In this document: positions 21,297 through 35,234 of the stretch, one piece after another
How positions within the stretch are numbered: the stretch's first letter is position 1
How the letters are laid out: every line of letters starts with the position of its first letter
Assembly: GCA_018436095.1 (NCBI GenBank)
Contig: JAHDMJ010000002.1
Location: 1-58,743, forward strand
From: Clostridia bacterium
GTDB lineage: Bacteria; Bacillota; Peptococcia; DRI-13; UBA5745
Direction of reading: 5' to 3'
Length of the DNA: 58,743 bases
Program-made: the position numbers and the translations under genes
The notes under the pieces: model-generated
The model's database searches: none
Seen by the model: the letters and a program-made list of their open reading frames with translations, nothing else
Told to the model about the DNA's origin: nothing

Positions 21297-22199
21297 TCAA
21301 TCAATGCATAGTACACAAGCCAGAGCCAGGGAAAGCAGCTTGTCCTGAGGCGAATCGGAGCGGGAGGTCATGATGACCGGTTGCCTGGCGCCCATTATAG
21401 CTGTAGCCAATGGCTTTTTGGCAATGTAGGTTACGGCTTTATGCAGCACGTTGCCCATGCGGATATCGGACATCAGCAGAATATCGGCATTGCCGGCTAT
21501 GGGGGAATCCAAGCCCTTGTGCTTTGCCGATTCCATAGAGAGGGCATTGTCCAAGGCAAAGGGCCCGTCAACAATACAGCCGGCTATCTGTCCCCGTTGG
21601 GCCATTTTGCTAAGTACAGCGGCGTCTAATGTGTCTTGCATCGACGGGTTTACCGTCTCTAAAGAAGTAATACAGGCTACGTGAGGCTGATCGTAACCGA
21701 TGCGCTGGGCTAAAACAACCGCATTTTCAATAATCTGCTTTTTCGCCGATAGATCCGGATCGATATTGATGGCGCAATCGGTAATCAACAAAAAGCCTTC
21801 CCTGTCGGGCTTTTCAATGATGCTGATTTCGCTAAGCAAATGTGAGCCGCGGATGCCCTTTTCTTTATCCAGGACTGCCTGCATAAATACAGCAGTAGGC
21901 AGTAAACCTTTCATGGGCAGATGGGCCTGGCGGCTGTGCAGCAGCTCAATTGATTTACGGGCAGCTTGATTAATATCCGGCTCATGAAGGATTTGACAAT
22001 GATCAAGCCTGTAGTTATGCCGGTGGGCCAATTCTTCGATTTTATTCTGATCGCCAATCAAAATAAATTCCGCCAGCCGCTGCTGGCCGGCCATGTGGGC
22101 AACCTCCAGCACATCAGGATCCTGGGCCGCGGCCACAGCCACAACTTTTGAGGAAATATGCTGCACAATTTCCAATAACTCTGCAAAATTTCGGATCAT
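21297..22199 (-). CDS. ptb: Phosphate butyryltransferase
   Basis: A 300-residue phosphotransacylase of the PTA/PTB family that exchanges CoA of an acyl-CoA for phosphate. Family features: VAVAAAQDPDVLEV at the N terminus, LPTAVFMQAVLDKE, the central VDGPFALDNALS motif, and the C-terminal NVLHKAVTYIA and ARQPVIMTSRSDS. It sits 11 bp after buk on the same strand, the standard pairing for acyl-CoA to acyl-P to ATP. Some Ptb-Buk pairs use branched or other short acyl groups, so butyrate is not certain. Together with the BMC-linked oxoacid oxidoreductase it may recover ATP from the acyl-CoA formed there. Confidence 0.9.
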   Translation of the reverse strand: MIRNFAELLEIVQHISSKVVAVAAAQDPDVLEVAHMAGQQRLAEFILIGDQNKIEELAHRHNYRLDHCQILHEPDINQAARKSIELLHSRQAHLPMKGLLPTAVFMQAVLDKEKGIRGSHLLSEISIIEKPDREGFLLITDCAINIDPDLSAKKQIIENAVVLAQRIGYDQPHVACITSLETVNPSMQDTLDAAVLSKMAQRGQIAGCIVDGPFALDNALSMESAKHKGLDSPIAGNADILLMSDIRMGNVLHKAVTYIAKKPLATAIMGARQPVIMTSRSDSPQDKLLSLALACVLCID

Positions 22200-22210
22200 C
22201 CGGGCACCTC

Positions 22211-23278
22211 CTATTCATATTCGTGGACAGGCACTTTACCTTCCAGGGCCAGAGCCCCGCCTTCATGCAAAGCCCGGAGCTCGTCCTCACCGGGATAATA
22301 GTAAAGCGGCGCAATCCAATGGACCCAGCGGGCGATTTCCGCCATCAAATAATGGCTGTTGGCCAGGCCGCCGGTAAAGGCCAAGGCATCGATTTTACCC
22401 TCCAAGACGCAGGCGCAGCCGCCGATCTCTTTACCGATCTGATAGGCCATGGCACAGTAAACCTCCCGGGCCTTTTCATCACCCTTTTCAATGCGTTTTT
22501 CGATTTCAACGCAGTTTTTTGTGCCAAGATGAGCATATAATCCCCCCTGGCCGTTGATCATCCGGTAAATTTCCTGGTATTCATATTTACCGCTGCAAGC
22601 TAAAGCCAGAAGGGCTCCGGCCGGGACTGTGCCGGCCCGTTCCGGCGCCATGGGGCCGTCGCCATCCAGGCCGTTATTAACGTCGATAACGCTGCCCTCG
22701 CAGTGGGCGGCGATGGATAGTCCGCTGCCGATGTGAGTGATAACAGCCCGCAGGCTTTCATAAGGCTTGCCAAGATCAGAGGCCAGCCTGCGGCCTACCG
22801 CTTTTTGATTCAGCGCCTGAAAATAGCTTTTTCGTTCCATTTCCGGCCGGCCGGTATAGCGGGCATAGGCCCACATCTCGTCCACACTGGGCGTATCTAC
22901 CGTGTATGCCGGAACACCCCATTCCTTTCCCAGATCGAAGGCGATCTTACAGCCCACACTACAGGGATGATTACCGTATTTGCGGCTGGTGGCGTCAGCG
23001 ATCATGGCTTGATTAATACGGTAGACACCGCTGCCCATGGGCTTTACCGGTGCGCCCCGGGAAACGATGGCGCTGCAATCACAGGAGGAAAAGAGCTGCT
23101 TATCCAGCCAATTCAGCAGTGTTTGCCGGCGATGGGAATATTGATTCCACAAATCTCCCAGTTCAATGGCAAGCTGCTGGGGCATTGGCAGATTGGCCTG
23201 GGCTTTGATCTCTTTGCCGTCATAGAGGGCAACCTTCGTTGAAGTGCCTCCCACATTCAGGACGATAATTCTCGTCAT
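22211..23278 (-). CDS. buk: Butyrate kinase
   Basis: A 355-residue ASKHA-fold acyl kinase that makes ATP from butyryl-phosphate (or a related acyl-phosphate) and ADP. The phosphate-binding ILNVGGTSTKVALY opens the protein, VITHIGSGLSIAAH and DGDGPMAPERAG are the butyrate kinase active-site segments, and ALAFTGGLANS is the adenosine loop. The length is right for Buk. It is first in the buk-ptb operon. Upstream, a CATAAT -10 element and a Crp-type palindrome suggest activation by a Crp/Fnr-family regulator, shared with the divergent TRAP operon. Confidence 0.93.
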   Translation of the reverse strand: MTRIIVLNVGGTSTKVALYDGKEIKAQANLPMPQQLAIELGDLWNQYSHRRQTLLNWLDKQLFSSCDCSAIVSRGAPVKPMGSGVYRINQAMIADATSRKYGNHPCSVGCKIAFDLGKEWGVPAYTVDTPSVDEMWAYARYTGRPEMERKSYFQALNQKAVGRRLASDLGKPYESLRAVITHIGSGLSIAAHCEGSVIDVNNGLDGDGPMAPERAGTVPAGALLALACSGKYEYQEIYRMINGQGGLYAHLGTKNCVEIEKRIEKGDEKAREVYCAMAYQIGKEIGGCACVLEGKIDALAFTGGLANSHYLMAEIARWVHWIAPLYYYPGEDELRALHEGGALALEGKVPVHEYE

Positions 23279-28244: not shown

Positions 28245-28478
28245 ATGATACGATGTCTTGTGACGGAAACGCTGACCGCCCAGATCAAGATGGCAGGTTT
28301 GGCGGGAAAGAAGCTGCTGGTCTGCCGGCCGGCAGAAAAACCGGAGAATGTCATTGTGGCAGTGGATACGCTGGGCGCCGGTATTGGCAGCGAAGTGCTG
28401 GTTTCCAAAAACTATTCAACAAGGCAAGAGGAATATGGCGTTGATTGTATGGTGTCCGCTATATTGGACCCGAAATAA
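28245..28478 (+). CDS. BMC vertex protein (EutN/CcmL family, BMC-P)
   Basis: A 77-residue protein of the EutN/CcmL family that forms the pentamers capping the vertices of bacterial microcompartments. It shows the family order: a first strand (RCLVTETLTAQI), LAGKKLLVCRPAE, the strongly conserved VAVDTLGAGIGSEVLV, and a C-terminal VDCMVSAIL. AGGAG lies 9 bases before ATG 28245. It is the first gene of the BMC operon, divergent from the Crp/Fnr gene. The 118-bp gap holds a GTGGC direct repeat (28173 and 28186) but no TGTGT-N6-ACACA site. Confidence 0.9.
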   Translation: MIRCLVTETLTAQIKMAGLAGKKLLVCRPAEKPENVIVAVDTLGAGIGSEVLVSKNYSTRQEEYGVDCMVSAILDPK

Positions 28479-28494: not shown

Positions 28495-28755
28495 ATGGAA
28501 TCATTAGGATTTATTGAGGTTAAGGGCTATGTTCCCGCCTTTGCGGCAGAGGATGCGGCGCTGAAAGCGGCGGACGTTAAGCTGGTTAAGCGGGTGGCTA
28601 TTGGAGCCGGCATGGTTACCGTAGTGATTGCCGGCGAGATCGGAGCGGTGCGCACGGCAGTGGACGCCGGGGCCAATGGGGTAAAGCGTCTGGGCAATCT
28701 GATCGGCTGTTTTACGCTGGCCCGGCCGGCGGAAGAAATCAAGACTATTATCTAA
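28495..28755 (+). CDS. BMC shell hexamer protein 1 (BMC-H)
   Basis: An 86-residue single BMC domain (Pfam00936 type) that assembles into hexamers tiling the shell facets. It has the consensus ESLGFIEVKGYVPAFAAEDAALKAADV, the pore loop with IGAG (around residues 39-42), MVTVVIAGEIGAVRTAVDAG, and the C-terminal ARPAEEI. ATG 28495 follows AAAGGAGG; it is 16 bp after the vertex gene. A cysteine sits in LIGCFTLARP. The downstream gap contains a MITE-like element. Confidence 0.93.
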   Translation: MESLGFIEVKGYVPAFAAEDAALKAADVKLVKRVAIGAGMVTVVIAGEIGAVRTAVDAGANGVKRLGNLIGCFTLARPAEEIKTII

Positions 28756-28936: not shown

Positions 28937-29212
28937 ATGGATTCCTGGGGCTTTATCGAAGTAATCGGCTTTATTCCCGCTATTGCCGCGGCAGATGCGA
29001 TGATCAAAACCGCCAACGTAGAGCTGGTGGGCCTGGAGCAAATCGGCGGCGCCATGCTGACAGTGGGCGTGAAAGGTGAAATCGGCGCGGTCAAAGCTGC
29101 TGTAGATGCGGGAGTGCTTGCCGCCAAGCAAAACGGGGAATTAGTAGCAGCCAATGTGCTGGCCCGGCCCAATCCGGAGGTTGCCGGACTGCTGAAAATG
29201 AAGTTAGGATAG
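28937..29212 (+). CDS. BMC shell hexamer protein 2 (BMC-H)
   Basis: A 91-residue single BMC domain. Family pattern: DSWGFIEVIGFIPAIAAADAMIKTANVELVG, pore loop with IGGA near residues 39-42, MLTVGVKGEIGAVKAAVDAG, and ANVLARPNPEV. The pore residues differ from those of the other two shell proteins, suggesting different metabolite selectivity. AAGGGGAGG precedes ATG 28937. It lies downstream of the MITE-like element and 11 bp upstream of the third shell gene. Confidence 0.94.
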   Translation: MDSWGFIEVIGFIPAIAAADAMIKTANVELVGLEQIGGAMLTVGVKGEIGAVKAAVDAGVLAAKQNGELVAANVLARPNPEVAGLLKMKLG

Positions 29213-29223
29213 GAGGGAGACAG

Positions 29224-29472
29224 ATGACTTCTCTGGGATATATTGAAGTAATTGGCCTGGTTGCCGCTATTGAGGCAGCCGATGCAGGGCTTAAAGCAGC
29301 AAATGTTGAATTGGCGGGCAAAGAAAATCCCGGCGCCGGTATGATTACGGTTGTATTTAAAGGTGAAATTGGTTCCATTAGAGCGGCTTTAGATGCGGCA
29401 GAGGCGGCGGCAGCCAGAATCAGCAAGGTCGTAAGCACCAACGTGATCGCCCGCCCCTTCCAGACTGCATAA
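29224..29472 (+). CDS. BMC shell hexamer protein 3 (BMC-H)
   Basis: An 82-residue single BMC domain: TSLGYIEVIGLVAAIEAADAGLKAANVELAG, pore loop with PGAG (a proline in place of the usual Ile/Val-Gly start), MITVVFKGEIGSIRAALDAAEAAA, and the short C terminus STNVIARPFQTA. AGGAGGG lies before ATG 29224. It precedes the aldolase gene by 27 bp. With the vertex protein and the two other hexamer proteins it makes a minimal shell set; no tandem-domain (BMC-T) protein is encoded in the window. Confidence 0.94.
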   Translation: MTSLGYIEVIGLVAAIEAADAGLKAANVELAGKENPGAGMITVVFKGEIGSIRAALDAAEAAAARISKVVSTNVIARPFQTA

Positions 29473-29499: not shown

Positions 29500-30558
29500 A
29501 TGCCTACATACATTACGGCGGCGGAGATAGCCGCTTGTCATACTAAAGGAGAGAAGGTTTTCGCCTGCGGGGCAGATGCGGTGTTGACGGATCTGGCCCG
29601 GGAAGAAGCGGATAAGCTGGGGATCGAACTTATCAGGCAGGGGGATAACAAAGGCGCGGGGGCACAGCCCCAGCCTGCCTCGCCGCTCCAGGCCCAAGCT
29701 CAAACTCAAGTTCAAGCTTCATCGCTTAAGCAAGCGAAATCCCAAAGCGGCGGCATCTACGGCGTACAGGGCTTTGAGCCGCCGGCTCCGCTAACGCATA
29801 AACGGCCATTCAAAGAAGTGCTGGGCTCCGGCCGTAAAATTGCCGGTACGTTTATCGGTACGCCTCATCCGGTGATGACCGAGTTTGTGGGTAAGCTGGG
29901 TTTTGATTTTTTATGCATCGATGCCGAGCATACGCCTATTCACCTGGCCACCCTTCAGGAAATGCTGCAAAGCATGGGTGCTGTCCCTGCCTATGGTGTT
30001 GTACGGGTACCGATGATTTCCTATCAATATATGTCCGGCGCCCTGGATATTGGGGCAGACGCCTTGCTGATTCCTCAGATTCGCACCGGCCAGGATATGG
30101 ATATCGTTGAGCAAGCCTGTTTGTATCCTCCTCAGGGCCGCAGAGGCATCGGCCCTTCCCGGGCCACCTCTTATGGCCTTGAAATCGGTAAAAAAGGCCA
30201 GGAGCCCAATCGGGATACGGCGATTATTATTCAAATTGAGACGAAGGAAGCATTGGATAATTTAGATGCTGTGATTTCCCGGGATATTGTGGATATGGTG
30301 TTTATCGGGCCGGGAGATCTTTCCATGAATTTAGGCGTATTCGGTCAAACCGGCCATCCCATTATGGTGGAGCAAATCGGGCGTATACAGGAAACTGCCG
30401 GAAGATACGGTAAACCTATCGGCATTTTTGCCGGGAATATGGAGGCTGCCGGCAATTGGCTGGATAAGGGTTTTGATATGGTGCTGATCAACTCGGAGCT
30501 GGGGCTTTTGGGCGAGCATATTGCAGGCAAGATGGCTGCTTTGCGGTCCCATATGTAG
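29500..30558 (+). CDS. HpcH/HpaI-family aldolase with N-terminal BMC-targeting-like extension
   Basis: A 352-residue class II (metal-dependent) aldolase of the HpcH/HpaI family, which cleaves 4-hydroxy-2-oxoacids or 2-keto-3-deoxy acids to pyruvate (or a related oxoacid) and an aldehyde. The barrel starts near residue 100. Active-site residues: D141-x-x-H144 (IDAEHTP), R169 (VVRVP), and metal ligands E247 (IQIET) and D273 (GPGDLS). The family is usually about 250 residues long; here 100 extra N-terminal residues comprise a folded-looking segment (1-46, with ADAVLTDLAREEADKLGIEL) and a Gln/Ala/Pro/Ser-rich linker (50-95). The same 45-residue segment begins the next enzyme. Such extensions in BMC operons usually direct enzymes into the shell. 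Substrate unknown. Confidence 0.88.
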   Translation: MPTYITAAEIAACHTKGEKVFACGADAVLTDLAREEADKLGIELIRQGDNKGAGAQPQPASPLQAQAQTQVQASSLKQAKSQSGGIYGVQGFEPPAPLTHKRPFKEVLGSGRKIAGTFIGTPHPVMTEFVGKLGFDFLCIDAEHTPIHLATLQEMLQSMGAVPAYGVVRVPMISYQYMSGALDIGADALLIPQIRTGQDMDIVEQACLYPPQGRRGIGPSRATSYGLEIGKKGQEPNRDTAIIIQIETKEALDNLDAVISRDIVDMVFIGPGDLSMNLGVFGQTGHPIMVEQIGRIQETAGRYGKPIGIFAGNMEAAGNWLDKGFDMVLINSELGLLGEHIAGKMAALRSHM

Positions 30559-30594
30559 TGCTGCAAAATTCAATAATAAGAAAGGAGGGGTTGG

Positions 30595-32256
30595 GTGAGA
30601 CAAGTGATATCTTCCGATGATATCTGGAATCTGGTGGAAGGGGGTAAAACCACGCTGCACCTGGAGGGTGAATATGTGTTGACCGACATTGCCCGGGATA
30701 TGGTCAAACGATATGGTATTGCCATTGCCGGACCCGCCCCGGGAATGATAGCGGCGACGGCCGGATCCTTGTCCCAAGAGGCGCCGGTTCCCCGGCAGGC
30801 GGCTTTGGGACCGGAAATACAAAGGGCAGACGCAACCGGAAAATCGGAGGGGGCGGCCTTTGCCAGAGGTTTGGGTCAGGCTTTTCGGAAGGATAAGGGG
30901 ATGACAGCCCCAAGAGCTCTGAATCAAGCGGACTTATTGATCACCAATGGCCGTATTGTATTGCCGGAGGCGGGCGTTATCGAAGGGGGTCTGGCCATAA
31001 AAGATGGCAAGGTGCTGGCAATCATAGCGCCTGACGCCCATTATCCGACGGAACGTTTGCTGGATGCCGGCGGCAATTATGTGTTGCCGGGCATTATCGA
31101 TCCCCATGTTCATCTGGGGATGTTTGCGCCGCTGGAGGAGGAGCTGGCCACGGAATCCCGAAGCTCCCTTCTGGGCGGCGTAACAACCATGGGCTGCTTT
31201 TTCAACCAAAAGGAGAGTTACCGCAGATTCCTGGAAGAACTGCCCGGCAAAGTAGCCCAATATAGCGGAGCCGACCTTTTCCCTCATCTGACCTTGCGGG
31301 AGCAGGTCCACCTTGAGGAACTAAGCCTGTACCGCACAAAGGGAGTTTCCTCCTTTAAGTCCTATATGTGCGGGATTCCCGGTTTATTGCCTCATCAAAG
31401 CGACGGGTTTATCGTTGCCGCTATGCAATCTTTAAAGATGCTGCCCGGGGAACCGGTGCTGTGTATCCACTGTGAGAATACATCCCTGGTGGATGCGGCA
31501 CTGGAACAGGCGGCAGCGTTGCCGGAGCTGGATCTGCGGCAGTGGGGAGCAACTCATCCGGCTATGGCCGAAGAGGAGGCACTGATCCGGGCCGCCTATT
31601 TTGCCAGCAAAATGGGCGTCAACCTCTACGCCGTACATATCGGCACAAAGGATGCTATTGAGACGGCCCGTTCAATTAAAGGACCCCGCATTCATATTGA
31701 GACCACTTCTCCTTATTTAAGCCTGGATGACAGTACGGCCGGCAGCGTTGACGCCAAAATGGCGCCGCCTATCCGGGATCAGGCAAGCCGGGAGGCGCTG
31801 TGGCGAGGGCTTGTAGAGGGTACCGTTGATACAATCGGCACCGACAACGTAACGATGACAAGGGCAGAAAAACAGGTGGAAAAGGGTATGGCAGGGGCAA
31901 TACCGGGTTATCCGGCAATGGCAACCCACTTGGTATCGGTGCTGGACGGCGCTATCCGCCGCAATATTCCATTGGAAACGGTTATAGCGAAGATGACATT
32001 AAATCCGGCGAAGATTTTTGGGATTTATCCCCGCAAGGGCACCCTGCTGCCCGGCAGCGATGCAGATATTGTGATTGTTGACCCCTGCCGGGAACAGGCA
32101 GTTGATCCGGGAACACTGGGCAGCCGCTCTGATTTTTCACTATTTACCGGTAGAACCTTGCGGGGTTGGCCTGTGGCTACCATTAAAGGCGGGGAATTGG
32201 TTTGTCAAAACGGGCAGATGGTATCAGGGGCCAGAGGAAGCTTTCTTATCCGTTAG
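30595..32256 (+). CDS. Dihydropyrimidinase/hydantoinase-like amidohydrolase with N-terminal BMC-targeting-like extension
   Basis: A 553-residue amidohydrolase-superfamily enzyme of the cyclic amidase group (dihydropyrimidinase, hydantoinase, allantoinase). The dinuclear metal site is complete: H171-x-H173 (DPHVHLG), the carboxylated lysine K255 (SSFKSYMC), H292 (CIHCEN), H348 (AVHIGT) and D417 (IGTDN). The catalytic body starts near residue 108. The first 45 residues align without gaps with those of the aldolase, sharing VLTD-AR at 28-34 and GI at 41-42, and a low-complexity linker follows. It therefore probably enters the same microcompartment. GTG 30595 has AAGGAGGGG upstream. The ring-opened substrate (imide, ureide or other) cannot be named. 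Confidence 0.87.
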   Translation: MRQVISSDDIWNLVEGGKTTLHLEGEYVLTDIARDMVKRYGIAIAGPAPGMIAATAGSLSQEAPVPRQAALGPEIQRADATGKSEGAAFARGLGQAFRKDKGMTAPRALNQADLLITNGRIVLPEAGVIEGGLAIKDGKVLAIIAPDAHYPTERLLDAGGNYVLPGIIDPHVHLGMFAPLEEELATESRSSLLGGVTTMGCFFNQKESYRRFLEELPGKVAQYSGADLFPHLTLREQVHLEELSLYRTKGVSSFKSYMCGIPGLLPHQSDGFIVAAMQSLKMLPGEPVLCIHCENTSLVDAALEQAAALPELDLRQWGATHPAMAEEEALIRAAYFASKMGVNLYAVHIGTKDAIETARSIKGPRIHIETTSPYLSLDDSTAGSVDAKMAPPIRDQASREALWRGLVEGTVDTIGTDNVTMTRAEKQVEKGMAGAIPGYPAMATHLVSVLDGAIRRNIPLETVIAKMTLNPAKIFGIYPRKGTLLPGSDADIVIVDPCREQAVDPGTLGSRSDFSLFTGRTLRGWPVATIKGGELVCQNGQMVSGARGSFLIR

Positions 32257-32307
32257 ACGAAAGATTCCGAACCTTGCTATAGAAGATAAGTGTTTAGGAG
32301 TGTGACT

Positions 32308-32853
32308 ATGAAAGAGATACGGCTCCACGGACGAGGCGGTCAGGGAATTGTCAAATCCGCTGAAGTAATTGTATATGCCGCAGTGCAAGAGGGCAAATTT
32401 GTCGCTTGCTTCCCTTATTTTGGTTTCGAAAAAAAAGGCGGTCCGGTCAGTGCTTTTGTCCGGATTGATAACAAAAAAATCCGCGAAAAAAATCAAGTCT
32501 ATTTTCCCCATTGTATTATTGTGCTGGATCCCACAATTATGGGAGCCACTGACGTATTCCAAGGAGCAAGAGAGGATTGCGTGTTAGTGATCAATGCCAG
32601 GTCTGTTGATAGCTTAGATATTCCGGATCAGATCACGACCATTACTTATATTGACGCCACGGCTTTATCCGAGGAATTGTTGGGGCGTAAAGTGCCGAAT
32701 ACGGTGATGCTGGGAGCCTATGCCAAAGCCACCGGTTGGACCGATGTGGAAAAGCTGGCTGGCCGGGCCGGCGAAATTTGGGGCGAAAAAAACAGGGACG
32801 CTGTGCTGCGGGGCTATTCCGACGTAACGGTGATCAGAAGAGGGGAGGTCTAA
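32308..32853 (+). CDS. porG: 2-Oxoacid:ferredoxin oxidoreductase, gamma subunit
   Basis: A 181-residue gamma-type subunit of pyruvate/2-oxoacid:ferredoxin oxidoreductases, contributing to CoA binding and complex assembly. The N-terminal EIRLHGRGGQGIVKSAEVI is diagnostic, followed by PYFGFEKKGGPVSAFVRI. ATG 32308 is preferred, with TAGGAG at 32295; a start at 32290 would add six residues. It is first in a gamma-delta-alpha-beta order familiar from four-subunit enzymes of thermophiles and archaea. The complex oxidatively decarboxylates a 2-oxoacid to acyl-CoA, CO2 and reduced ferredoxin; pyruvate from the upstream aldolase is the obvious candidate. Confidence 0.9.
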   Translation: MKEIRLHGRGGQGIVKSAEVIVYAAVQEGKFVACFPYFGFEKKGGPVSAFVRIDNKKIREKNQVYFPHCIIVLDPTIMGATDVFQGAREDCVLVINARSVDSLDIPDQITTITYIDATALSEELLGRKVPNTVMLGAYAKATGWTDVEKLAGRAGEIWGEKNRDAVLRGYSDVTVIRRGEV

Positions 32854-32855
32854 TC

Positions 32856-33116
32856 GTGATCAAAACAAAGTATATTTGTGCCGTTGCCGAGGAGCTAAAC
32901 GATATCAATACCGGGGCCTGGAAAACCTATCCGCTGCTCCTTGATCAGGCAAAATGCATCAAATGCGGTTTATGTATCCAATATTGTCCCACCAATTCGG
33001 TAATCCGTGACGAAAAAGACGGTTTTTTCATCAGCCTTGAGTATTGCAAGGGTTGCGGCGTCTGCATCAACGAATGTCCCAGAGGAGCTATCAGCTATGT
33101 GAAGGAGGATCAATAA
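32856..33116 (+). CDS. porD: 2-Oxoacid:ferredoxin oxidoreductase, delta (ferredoxin) subunit
   Basis: An 86-residue 2x[4Fe-4S] ferredoxin-type subunit. Both cluster motifs are complete: CIKCGLCIQYCP and CKGCGVCINECP. It passes electrons from the thiamine site to external ferredoxin. The start is GTG 32856, with GGGGAGG at 32842-32848; the open frame reaches further upstream but overlaps porG. The gene is packed between porG (2 bp) and porA (1 bp). Confidence 0.92.
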   Translation: MIKTKYICAVAEELNDINTGAWKTYPLLLDQAKCIKCGLCIQYCPTNSVIRDEKDGFFISLEYCKGCGVCINECPRGAISYVKEDQ

Positions 33117-33117
33117 T

Positions 33118-34308
33118 ATGGAGAAGCTTGTAGTTGTAGACGGCAATCATGCGGCTGCTTTGGGCGCCCTGCTGTGCAGACCCGACGTGGTGGCGGCCTA
33201 CCCTATCACTCCCCAGACGCCCCTGGTTGAGCACTTCACTCAGTACATAGCAGACGGCGCCCTGGACTGTGCTATTTTGGAACCGGAGTCAGAACATTCT
33301 GCCATGAGCATATTGGAAGGGGCTTCCTTAGCCGGCGGCCGCACCTTTACCGCTACGTCATCCCAAGGGCTGGCTTTGATGTACGAGCCTTATTTTCGGG
33401 CCTCCACCATGCGGCTGCCTATCGTTATGGATATTGTCAACAGGGAGATGATTTCCCCCCAGACTATCTGGGGAGGGCCTCAGGATTCCCTGTCCGTGCG
33501 GGACGCAGGCTGGATTCAAATTTACGTTGAAGATAATCAGGAGATTTTGGACATGAATGTGCAGGCTTTCAAAATTGCCGAGCATAAAGATGTGCTATTG
33601 CCTGTTAATATCTGTTTTGACGGTTTTTACCTTTCTCACATGACAGAAGGCGTACTGGTCTGTGAGCAGGAGAAAGTAGACGCCTTTTTGCCCAAATACC
33701 TGCCGGAGCATGTGAAGCTGGACCCTGAGCGGCCTATGGCTGTGGATCCGCTGACGCCGGGGGCCTATCTGCAATATTACCGGGAGCTCCATATGCAGGC
33801 TATGGATAATGCGAAGAAGGTGATCCAGCAGGTCAATGATGAGTTTGCTCAATTATTTGGGCGCAGCTACGGCGGTTTGGTAGATACTTACCGCCTTGAG
33901 GATGCGGATTACGTGTTGATAACCATGGGCTCTCTAACCGGAACGGCCCGGGTAGCAGTGGATTACGCCCGCCAAAAGGGTGTTAAAGTTGGGATTTTGA
34001 AGCTGCGCAGCATCCGGCCTTTCCCGAAGGAGCTTGTCCAGCAGTATTTGAAGGGCCGTAAGGCTGCCGGCGTGGTGGACCGCAACGTCAGCTTTGGCTG
34101 GCATTGTGGCATCACCTATTTGGAGGTACTGTCCGCCATGGGCGGCGCACTGAATATGCCGTTGTTGCCCTTTATTGGAGGCTTGGGAGGCGAGGACCTG
34201 ACTATCGAGCTTTTGGCTAAAGCAATCGACTATATTGTTGCGGCAGGTAAAGGTCGGTATAACACGCCTCAGCAGGCAATTTGGCTGGTAAAGGGGGAAG
34301 AGGAATGA
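33118..34308 (+). CDS. porA: 2-Oxoacid:ferredoxin oxidoreductase, alpha subunit
   Basis: A 396-residue alpha subunit containing the pyrimidine-binding domain and the central domain. Signature segments: AAYPITPQTPLVEHF, the catalytic-site Glu region LEPESEHSAMSILEGASLAGGRTFTATSS, and MRLPIVMDIVNRE. The C-terminal part carries the domain II transketolase-like fold (VGILKLRSIRPFP). Whether pyruvate or another oxoacid is used cannot be told from sequence. AAGGAGG lies before ATG 33118. It overlaps porB by four bases (ATGA). Confidence 0.92.
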   Translation: MEKLVVVDGNHAAALGALLCRPDVVAAYPITPQTPLVEHFTQYIADGALDCAILEPESEHSAMSILEGASLAGGRTFTATSSQGLALMYEPYFRASTMRLPIVMDIVNREMISPQTIWGGPQDSLSVRDAGWIQIYVEDNQEILDMNVQAFKIAEHKDVLLPVNICFDGFYLSHMTEGVLVCEQEKVDAFLPKYLPEHVKLDPERPMAVDPLTPGAYLQYYRELHMQAMDNAKKVIQQVNDEFAQLFGRSYGGLVDTYRLEDADYVLITMGSLTGTARVAVDYARQKGVKVGILKLRSIRPFPKELVQQYLKGRKAAGVVDRNVSFGWHCGITYLEVLSAMGGALNMPLLPFIGGLGGEDLTIELLAKAIDYIVAAGKGRYNTPQQAIWLVKGEEE

Positions 34309-35234
34309 GGGCTGCAGAGATGAAGACTATCAAGATGAGCGCAACCGATAAAATGCTGGCTTATGCCGATATGGTGGCTCCGGGCATTACCTCCTGTGAG
34401 GGCTGCAACGTGGAGTTGACCATGCGTACGGTGCTCAAGGTACTGGGGCCAAACACCATTGTGGCCATCCCCCCGGGTTGTATGGGCGGTGTGCAGACGG
34501 TGGGCTGGGAAGACAGGATGGGTACAAAAATCCCGGTGTTTTTCCCGCTGCTGGATAATACCGCATCCATGCTGGGCGGCATCAAGAAGTATTATGAGCA
34601 TATTGGCCGTCATGTAAATGTGGTGGCCTTTGCCGGCGACGGAGCCAGTGTGGATGCCGGTTTTCAAGCCCTCTCAGGAGCTGCCGAGCGGGGAGATAAT
34701 ATCATTTATATCTGTTATGACAATGAAGGATACATGAATACGGGCTTTCAGCGCAGCGGCTCTACCACAAAAGGCTCCTGGACCTCCACAACACCGGTGG
34801 GCGCCGCTCACAAGGGTAAAAAGACCCACCGCAAGGATGCGCCAATGATTATGGCTATGCACGATATTCCTTACGTGGCTACAGCTTCGCCGGCTTATAT
34901 CCCGGATTTGATCGCCAAAGTGGAAAAGGCTATGCAGGTTCGGGACGGTATGGCTTACATTCATGTATATAATGCCTGTTCCACCGGCTGGGGCTACCAG
35001 CCATGCAAAAGTATAGATATTTGCCGCCGTTCGGTGCAGACCCGCTTTTATCCGCTGTATGAGGTGGAGCACGGAAAATTCAAGCTTTCTTTGGATATAA
35101 AACAGCCAAAGCCGGTGAAAGATTTTCTCAACCAGCTAAAAAAATTTCGCCATCTAAGTGAAAGTGATATCCTGGAGATACAAGAGTTGGTTGACCGCCG
35201 CTGGAACCGGCTGCTGGGCCTTTGCCAAATTTGA
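34305..35234 (+). CDS. porB: 2-Oxoacid:ferredoxin oxidoreductase, beta subunit
   Basis: A 309-residue beta subunit that binds thiamine diphosphate. The GDG...N cofactor motif is visible as FAGDGASVDAGFQALSGAAERGDNIIYICYDNEGYMNTG. Cysteines for the proximal [4Fe-4S] cluster are CEGCN near the N terminus, together with others in PPGCMGG and YNACSTGWGYQP. ATG 34305 overlaps the porA stop (ATGA). Its stop lies 1 bp from the stop of the convergent second Crp/Fnr gene, with no room for a terminator. Confidence 0.93.
   Translation: MRAAEMKTIKMSATDKMLAYADMVAPGITSCEGCNVELTMRTVLKVLGPNTIVAIPPGCMGGVQTVGWEDRMGTKIPVFFPLLDNTASMLGGIKKYYEHIGRHVNVVAFAGDGASVDAGFQALSGAAERGDNIIYICYDNEGYMNTGFQRSGSTTKGSWTSTTPVGAAHKGKKTHRKDAPMIMAMHDIPYVATASPAYIPDLIAKVEKAMQVRDGMAYIHVYNACSTGWGYQPCKSIDICRRSVQTRFYPLYEVEHGKFKLSLDIKQPKPVKDFLNQLKKFRHLSESDILEIQELVDRRWNRLLGLCQI

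Follow-up and report, generated by a model that had tools for sequence, protein, structure and literature searches.

A portable module of about 45 residues, shared by two enzymes of a clostridial microcompartment locus with EutQ, as a probable shell-side connector

The window analysed here, a stretch of 58,743 nucleotides from a Clostridia bacterium (assembly GCA_018436095.1, contig JAHDMJ010000002.1, positions 1 to 58,743), contains a bacterial microcompartment (BMC) locus in which genes for one BMC-P and three BMC-H shell proteins are directly followed by genes for an HpcH/HpaI aldolase and a hydantoinase-type amidohydrolase (Table 1). An earlier note on this DNA, made from the letters alone, had recognized the three BMC-H genes, which PF00936 matches bear out, and overlooked the BMC-P gene identified by PF03319. 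Both enzymes carry, starting at residue 1, a similar segment that precedes a linker and the catalytic domain; this segment, which we refer to as the module, is the subject of our analysis.

How similar are the two segments? In a MAFFT alignment, residues 1-56 of the two proteins pair without gaps at 23% identity over 56 columns, with I5, I10, G17, V28-L29-T30-D31, A33-R34 and G41-I42 identical in both, exactly as the earlier note had listed them for an ungapped alignment of ~45 residues. An identity this low would suit a chance resemblance, or a recent local copy devoid of function. However, the Smith-Waterman score of 42 compares with a shuffle mean of 19.3, and 0 of 2000 shuffles equalled it; judged from the sequences, the two proteins are homologous over residues 1-47. 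The enzyme bodies are unrelated, being an HpcH/HpaI aldolase (PF03328) in one case and a hydantoinase/dihydropyrimidinase-type amidohydrolase in the other. The low-complexity linkers described previously are real by residue composition, with ~54 residues in the aldolase (19% Q, 15% A, 13% G, 11% P) and ~65 in the amidohydrolase (23% A, 12% G, 9% P), and a strong amphipathic helix resembling an encapsulation peptide (EP) is absent from both. The catalytic domain begins at residue ~102-104 of the aldolase, within the proposed range of about 100-108, and at ~112-115 of the amidohydrolase, where the proposed 108 has to be moved to ~112. As active-site motifs are present in both proteins (DAEHTP 141, VRVP 168, QIET 245 and GPGDLS 270 in the aldolase; the metal-site motifs HxH 171, K in FKSY 254, IHCEN 291, VHIGT 347 and GTDN 415 in the amidohydrolase), both look functional.

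The aldolase segment has nearer kin outside the locus: it scores 61 against E. coli EutQ (41-column local alignment) and 45 against EutT (0 of 2000 shuffles), and is thereby nearer to EutQ than to the neighbouring amidohydrolase, which argues against a local copy. Positions 2-63 of the NCBIfam EutQ model align weakly with aldolase residues 2-62 (E=0.0094), and positions 1-45 of a EutQ profile match residues 1-44 (E=0.0017). An independent profile, built from 65 segments of other organisms' carriers with the window and E. coli sequences excluded, matches the aldolase and the amidohydrolase (E=1.7e-6 each), EutT (7.2e-7), EutQ (1e-5) and a flavoprotein from a second BMC locus of the same genome (1.5e-7); it finds nothing in 14 other E. 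coli Eut proteins or in 200 shuffled sequences. With each segment retrieved separately by this profile, and with the pattern recurring on many unrelated enzymes of BMC loci, a functionless copy or a coincidence has next to no probability; chance similarity was ruled out by the shuffles and the independent profile together.

Conversely, when 67 module sequences were compared with protein family models, TIGR02536 was matched by 57, EutQ by 35, PduM (TIGR04493, best E=6e-8) by 32 and EutT by 18, all of them BMC families; no non-BMC family was matched by more than two, and none below E=0.03. The PduM matches fall in the last ~40 residues of the model, and in a profile-profile comparison with hhalign the module aligns with PduM residues 122-161 (E=8.8e-6; PduM genes from public records). 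This link rests on profiles, since a lone PduM sequence scores only 0.04 against the module profile. PduM was said in 2025 to be without known sequence homologues outside Pdu microcompartments (PMC12108088), and no description or published name of a module common to these proteins was found in open-access full text. Across the 67 sequences T30 and A33 are kept in at least 90% of rows, and helix 2 starts after T-P/D-x-A-R/K.

The relatives differ in what the module is attached to. In EutQ, residues 1-~45 (helices H1/H2) are homologous, with the same two helices, the same N-terminal placement and a flexible linker thereafter, but that linker leads to the EP-binding helices H3/H4 and a cupin, whereas the linkers of the window enzymes lead directly to the aldolase or amidohydrolase; neither body has a C-terminal cupin (PF06249), so these are not EutQ proteins. 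The cobalamin adenosyltransferase EutT has the same order as the window enzymes, an N-terminal module and then an enzyme, although a different one. In PduM, whose loss partly separates core and shell, the module forms the C-terminal ~40 residues opposite an N-terminal encapsulation peptide, unlike the N-terminal module of the window enzymes. In the TIGR02536 BMC flavoproteins it is again C-terminal, on a flavoprotein domain that usually starts with an EP-like helix.

AlphaFold2 was run on the two copies with 108 (aldolase) and 71 (amidohydrolase) aligned sequences. It returned the same small unit in both cases, with strands at 4-5, 20-24 and 43-47 and helices at 7-15 and 31-40 in the aldolase module (mean pLDDT 87), and strands at 3-5, 20-22, 27-29 and 43-45 and helices at 7-16 and 31-40 in the amidohydrolase module (mean pLDDT 85). 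Both copies are thus predicted to share one small βαββαβ fold, and on inspection the halves of the model look like a duplicated β-α-β unit. Against the PDB, all Foldseek matches had E values of at least 0.36 and VIA-align Z scores did not exceed 4.8, with matches scattered over unrelated folds; a sequence search turned up nothing beyond chance matches and artefacts from repeats in a long secretion protein. The predicted architecture also bears on whether the segment might be a classical encapsulation peptide, as its terminal position, the flexible linker to the enzyme body and the BMC locus would suggest. Encapsulation peptides consist of one amphipathic helix of ~15-20 residues (PMC8217296), whereas the segment has 45 residues, with two helices and flanking strands, and many module carriers possess a separate EP-like helix at their other end; this identity is therefore very improbable.

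How widely is the module distributed, and in what company? All our counts refer to one phylum and one pattern scan. A first profile of four sequences, searched against 46 genomes of the class, recovered besides the window only EutQ, EutT and BMC flavoproteins, together with two chance matches. A larger profile detected the module in 85 of 398 genomes of the phylum. Clustered with the segment masked, the carriers comprise EutT, EutQ, TIGR02536 flavoproteins, PduL phosphotransacylases with the module at either the N- or the C-terminus, an aldehyde dehydrogenase and a class V aminotransferase, as well as several small proteins that resemble adaptors and ten proteins with an ACT domain. Many C-terminal carriers begin with an EP-like amphipathic helix, and a helix of this kind also accompanies the module in the small carriers. 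One internal match (L151) is a EutT (Cob_adeno_trans) that lies close to the end of its contig and was probably given too early a start; at another locus (L123) no open frame with the module was found. Scanning ~85,000 species, each represented by one genome, with EutQ-like sequences as seeds added an RpiB-type isomerase (L254, PF02502) and a 113-residue protein (L257) consisting of an EP-like helix, a linker and the module.

The association with microcompartments is strong. PF00936 occurs in 77 of the 85 module genomes and in 30 of the 313 others (odds ratio 91, p=2e-47), and shell genes lie in the same stretch (at most 20 kb) for 87 of the 99 module loci that were fetched from the phylum, as judged by a neighbourhood profile of 12 domains from three loci that may miss divergent shell proteins. 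Of the remaining 12 loci, ten encode the ACT-domain proteins and two a EutT close to a contig end; each of the eight module genomes that have no BMC genes belongs to an ACT carrier. In the species-wide scan, shell genes stand within 10 kb of 79 of 80 module loci, a figure biased towards Eut loci by the EutQ-like seeds. The window's own 3.7-Mb genome has only three module matches: the two enzymes and the TIGR02536 flavoprotein of its second BMC locus, which is of the glycyl-radical-enzyme type (G000:C17:158000-177500, L014) and in which the module is C-terminal. The enrichment in BMC loci that had been predicted for the segment therefore holds strongly, and with it the proposal of a cargo-targeting segment finds support; what that proposal missed is the place of the segment in the established proteins EutQ, EutT and PduM.

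Some carriers deserve a separate description. Mini-adaptors of 95-120 residues, made up of module, linker and EP-like helix only, are encoded beside BMC genes (Table 1). RpiB is a signature enzyme of SPU compartments, and the RpiB-type isomerase with an N-terminal module comes from a metagenome-assembled genome of the Bacteroidia with no shell gene within 10 kb; it is a candidate for BMC cargo whose gene lies apart from those of its shell. The ACT-domain carriers are proteins of ~155 residues with an N-terminal module, nearly all from one bacterial family and mostly from genomes without BMC genes.

Comparison with relatives of the two enzymes further couples the module to encapsulation. Ordinary HpcH aldolases of 60 relatives can be aligned only from residue ~82-114 onward and so are without the module; the same holds for those of 17 genomes, with three paralogues from the window's own genome among them. 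A scan of ~85,000 species for an orthologue of the window aldolase gave 31 pattern matches, none of them related, which is a weak negative with six exact 8-residue patterns. For the amidohydrolase, a locus in another genome of the phylum (L133, G151:C17:8620-19415) encodes BMC-P, BMC-H, a BMC-domain protein, an amidohydrolase and PorCDAB, the subunits of a 2-oxoacid:ferredoxin oxidoreductase (Por) that also follows the enzymes in the window; the amidohydrolases are 44% and the Por subunits 47-60% identical between the two loci. In L133, the module instead occupies the N-terminus of a class V aminotransferase. An ADP-forming acyl-CoA synthetase and a beta-eliminating lyase are encoded there as well. 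Two further genomes (loci L288 and L289) have an orthologous amidohydrolase (41-43% identical, 446-451 residues) beside Por genes, with no shell genes nearby, and these amidohydrolases are without the module. The same Por gene set adjoins the amidohydrolase in all three loci. The L288 and L289 genes, which lie near molybdoenzyme-like genes, are possibly an unencapsulated form of the pathway. As the aminotransferase of L133 carries the module and the shell-less amidohydrolases do not, the module accompanies encapsulation and can sit on different enzymes, which look like members of one pathway. Among the aldolases and amidohydrolases compared, the segment is accordingly not widespread outside BMCs, an outcome on which the earlier note had made its proposal depend.

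The proximity of Por invites a different reading, in which the module would be a general protein-binding or ligand-sensing domain, possibly kin to the E3-binding (peripheral subunit-binding) domain, that ties the enzymes to Por, its association with BMCs being secondary. The Pfam model E3_binding weakly matches 27 of 108 modules (best E=1.5e-4) and one EutQ (6.3e-4), Por genes are adjacent, and the ACT-domain fusions in BMC-free genomes would fit as well. However, the matches inspected in two relatives (PF02817; 20.4 and 18.0 bits) fall below the curated cut-off of 23.7 and coincide with the TPxARDxAxExGI helix region, and in the predicted fold the two helices are surrounded by short strands. 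The aldolase module matches neither E3_binding nor any other known Pfam domain. Taken with the very strong association with shell genes and the missing module in amidohydrolases that adjoin Por without a shell, this makes a role in binding Por distinctly unlikely. A permuted peripheral subunit-binding domain was likewise considered and dropped as unproven, as E3_binding, the one noteworthy weak match that recurred, stays below its cut-off. The E3-binding fold does not appear among the PDB structure matches listed (best Z 4.8), which falls short of excluding it.

What function could the module then serve? The best guide is EutQ, in which the counterpart of the window module is H1/H2. EutQ lacking residues 9-41 (H1/H2) remains with cargo and parts from the shell, EutQ lacking residues 62-99 remains with the shell, residues 1-99 direct GFP to the ethanolamine compartment, and cargo peptides bind residues 63-99, not 2-62 (PMC12487888). 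In vitro, EutQ 1-100 is needed for binding to the shell protein EutM, and the EutM mutation Q64K abolishes EutQ binding (PMC4827028); of three EutM positions whose mutation abolished binding, two (K/R53, D57) are kept in all BMC-H of the window. PduM has been described as a core-shell linker (PMC9132943). These data suggest that the module may be a portable, independently folding shell-side connector of BMCs. In EutQ, PduM and the TIGR02536 flavoproteins, the module together with an EP-like or cargo-binding helix would bridge core and shell, forming a two-headed adaptor whose EP side faces the core and whose module side faces the shell. In the case of the aldolase and the amidohydrolase, the module would attach the enzyme to the lumenal shell surface with no adaptor, at BMC-H hexamers and perhaps their interfaces; we infer this direct tethering because neither enzyme's linker has a strong EP-like helix. 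It is thus probable, in our assessment, that the module is a shell-side connector by which both enzymes dock on the inner face of the shell, and by homology the window copies would bind the shell of this very locus.

Several observations weigh against this. In genomes of ACT-domain carriers, 8 of 11 are without a PF00936 gene, so that the module can serve something other than a shell and, with carriers in BMC-free genomes, is not strictly exclusive to BMCs. Nor is it required for BMCs in general, since 30 of 107 BMC genomes are without it; a search for PF15953 in these 30 genomes gave no match. Two of the three window BMC-H proteins have lysine at EutM position 64 (K, K and A in BMC-H 1-3), the exchange that is detrimental in EutM; on this criterion BMC-H 3 would be the foremost candidate partner. 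Deletion of EutQ 9-41 demonstrates a shell-side need in vivo and leaves the shell-contacting residues unmapped (PMC12487888). Finally, when residues 1-37 of its partner PduB are missing, PduM is kept with the core and has little shell association (PMC9132943). This last behaviour would be expected if the module were a cargo-cargo connector that helps to form the core and reaches the shell only indirectly, as would the presence of the same module on both window enzymes, which homotypic clustering predicts; encapsulation peptides, moreover, are known to condense cargo. Yet the two EutQ deletions place the module on the shell side, in line with the requirement of EutQ 1-100 for EutM binding, and we regard a core-forming role as unlikely, while retaining docking to the shell as the preferred explanation.

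The remainder of the locus allows a tentative view of the compartment that the two enzymes would inhabit. Its tiles are probably BMC-H and BMC-P only. The true start of BMC-H 1 is likely the one given in Table 1 rather than 28348, from which a longer frame would overlap the BMC-P gene. Inspection by eye of the open reading frames between 20 and 41 kb, some of which were also scanned with Pfam, revealed no aldehyde dehydrogenase, PduL-type phosphotransacylase or alcohol dehydrogenase. The locus looks like a rare BMC type, with enzyme families that suggest a pathway in which a cyclic amide would be opened by the hydrolase and a 2-oxoacid then cleaved or oxidised, Por being probably the next step. 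Phosphate butyryltransferase and butyrate kinase genes lie upstream on the opposite strand and are a possible ATP-yielding end of this pathway; the flanks also hold two TRAP transporters, two 2-hydroxyacid dehydrogenases and two Crp-type regulators. The nearest described loci are those of the BUF type, which likewise combine shell genes with amidohydrolases and have no obvious aldehyde dehydrogenase (Axen et al. 2014, PMC4207490). However, the BUF enzymes named there do not include an HpcH aldolase, which the window has, and the carbon monoxide hydrogenase, deaminase and formiminotransferase of BUF loci were not seen in the window.

Table 1. Positions of the features discussed, in the window unless a locus or contig is named
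Feature	Position	Strand	Basis
BMC-P (EutN/CcmL) pentamer	28245..28478	+	PF03319 at G000:C19:28245-28469, E=2.3e-14; ATG at 28245
BMC-H 1	28495..28755	+	PF00936, E=4.3e-19; start codon and ribosome site read
BMC-H 2	28937..29212	+	PF00936, E=2.5e-23
BMC-H 3	29224..29472	+	PF00936, E=1.3e-22
HpcH/HpaI aldolase frame, 352 aa	29500..30558	+	
Module, aldolase residues 1-47	29500..29640	+	EutQ/EutT N-terminus homology; AlphaFold2 model
Gln/Ala/Gly/Pro-rich linker, aldolase residues 48-101	29641..29802	+	Composition
HpcH/HpaI-type class II pyruvate aldolase domain	29803..30558	+	PF03328, E=1.3e-29; HpaI, 5.7e-46
Hydantoinase-type amidohydrolase frame, GTG start, 553 aa	30595..32256	+	
Module, amidohydrolase residues 1-47	30595..30735	+	Alignment, profile match, AlphaFold2 model
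Ala/Gly/Pro-rich linker, amidohydrolase residues 47-111	30733..30927	+	Composition
Hydantoinase/dihydropyrimidinase-type domain	30928..32256	+	TIGR02033, E=1.1e-65; PDB 1gkr L-hydantoinase, E=4.5e-54
Four-gene 2-oxoacid:ferredoxin oxidoreductase	32290..35234	+	PorC/PorA family matches
PorC	32290-32853		
PorD	~32850-33116		
PorA	33118-34308		
PorB	34281-35234		
Phosphate butyryltransferase and butyrate kinase genes	21297-23278	-	
TIGR02536 flavoprotein, second BMC locus	G000:C17:170908-171684		
RpiB-type isomerase	L254:9995-10672		
Mini-adaptor	L257:9803-10144		
Mini-adaptor	L181:6055-6417	-	
Mini-adaptor	L126:9498-9785		
Mini-adaptor	L120:5847-6137	-	
ACT-domain carriers	L103, L104, L116, L154, L165, L173, L177, L182, L183, L186		

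Beyond the two enzymes, we favour, with moderate confidence, a more general scenario in which this domain of ~45 residues, for which Pfam has no model, serves metabolosomes in general as a shell-side connector and unites EutQ, PduM, EutT, the TIGR02536 flavoproteins, some PduL and the mini-adaptors. In the rare BMC type with amidohydrolase and 2-oxoacid:ferredoxin oxidoreductase, it would have been fused directly to core enzymes, namely the HpcH aldolase and the amidohydrolase here and the class V aminotransferase in the related locus, replacing the scheme of adaptor and encapsulation peptide. That EutQ and PduM act as linkers was already known; what the sequences add is one module common to both and to whole enzymes. 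Such a shared, movable unit would make a common mechanism of shell docking directly testable, and it bears on the means by which cargo is held at the BMC shell, including the attachment of PduM, which was previously unexplained. For engineered compartments, the module may further provide targeting tags of a second class, and it could serve as a sequence marker for BMC enzymes that are encoded apart from their shell genes.

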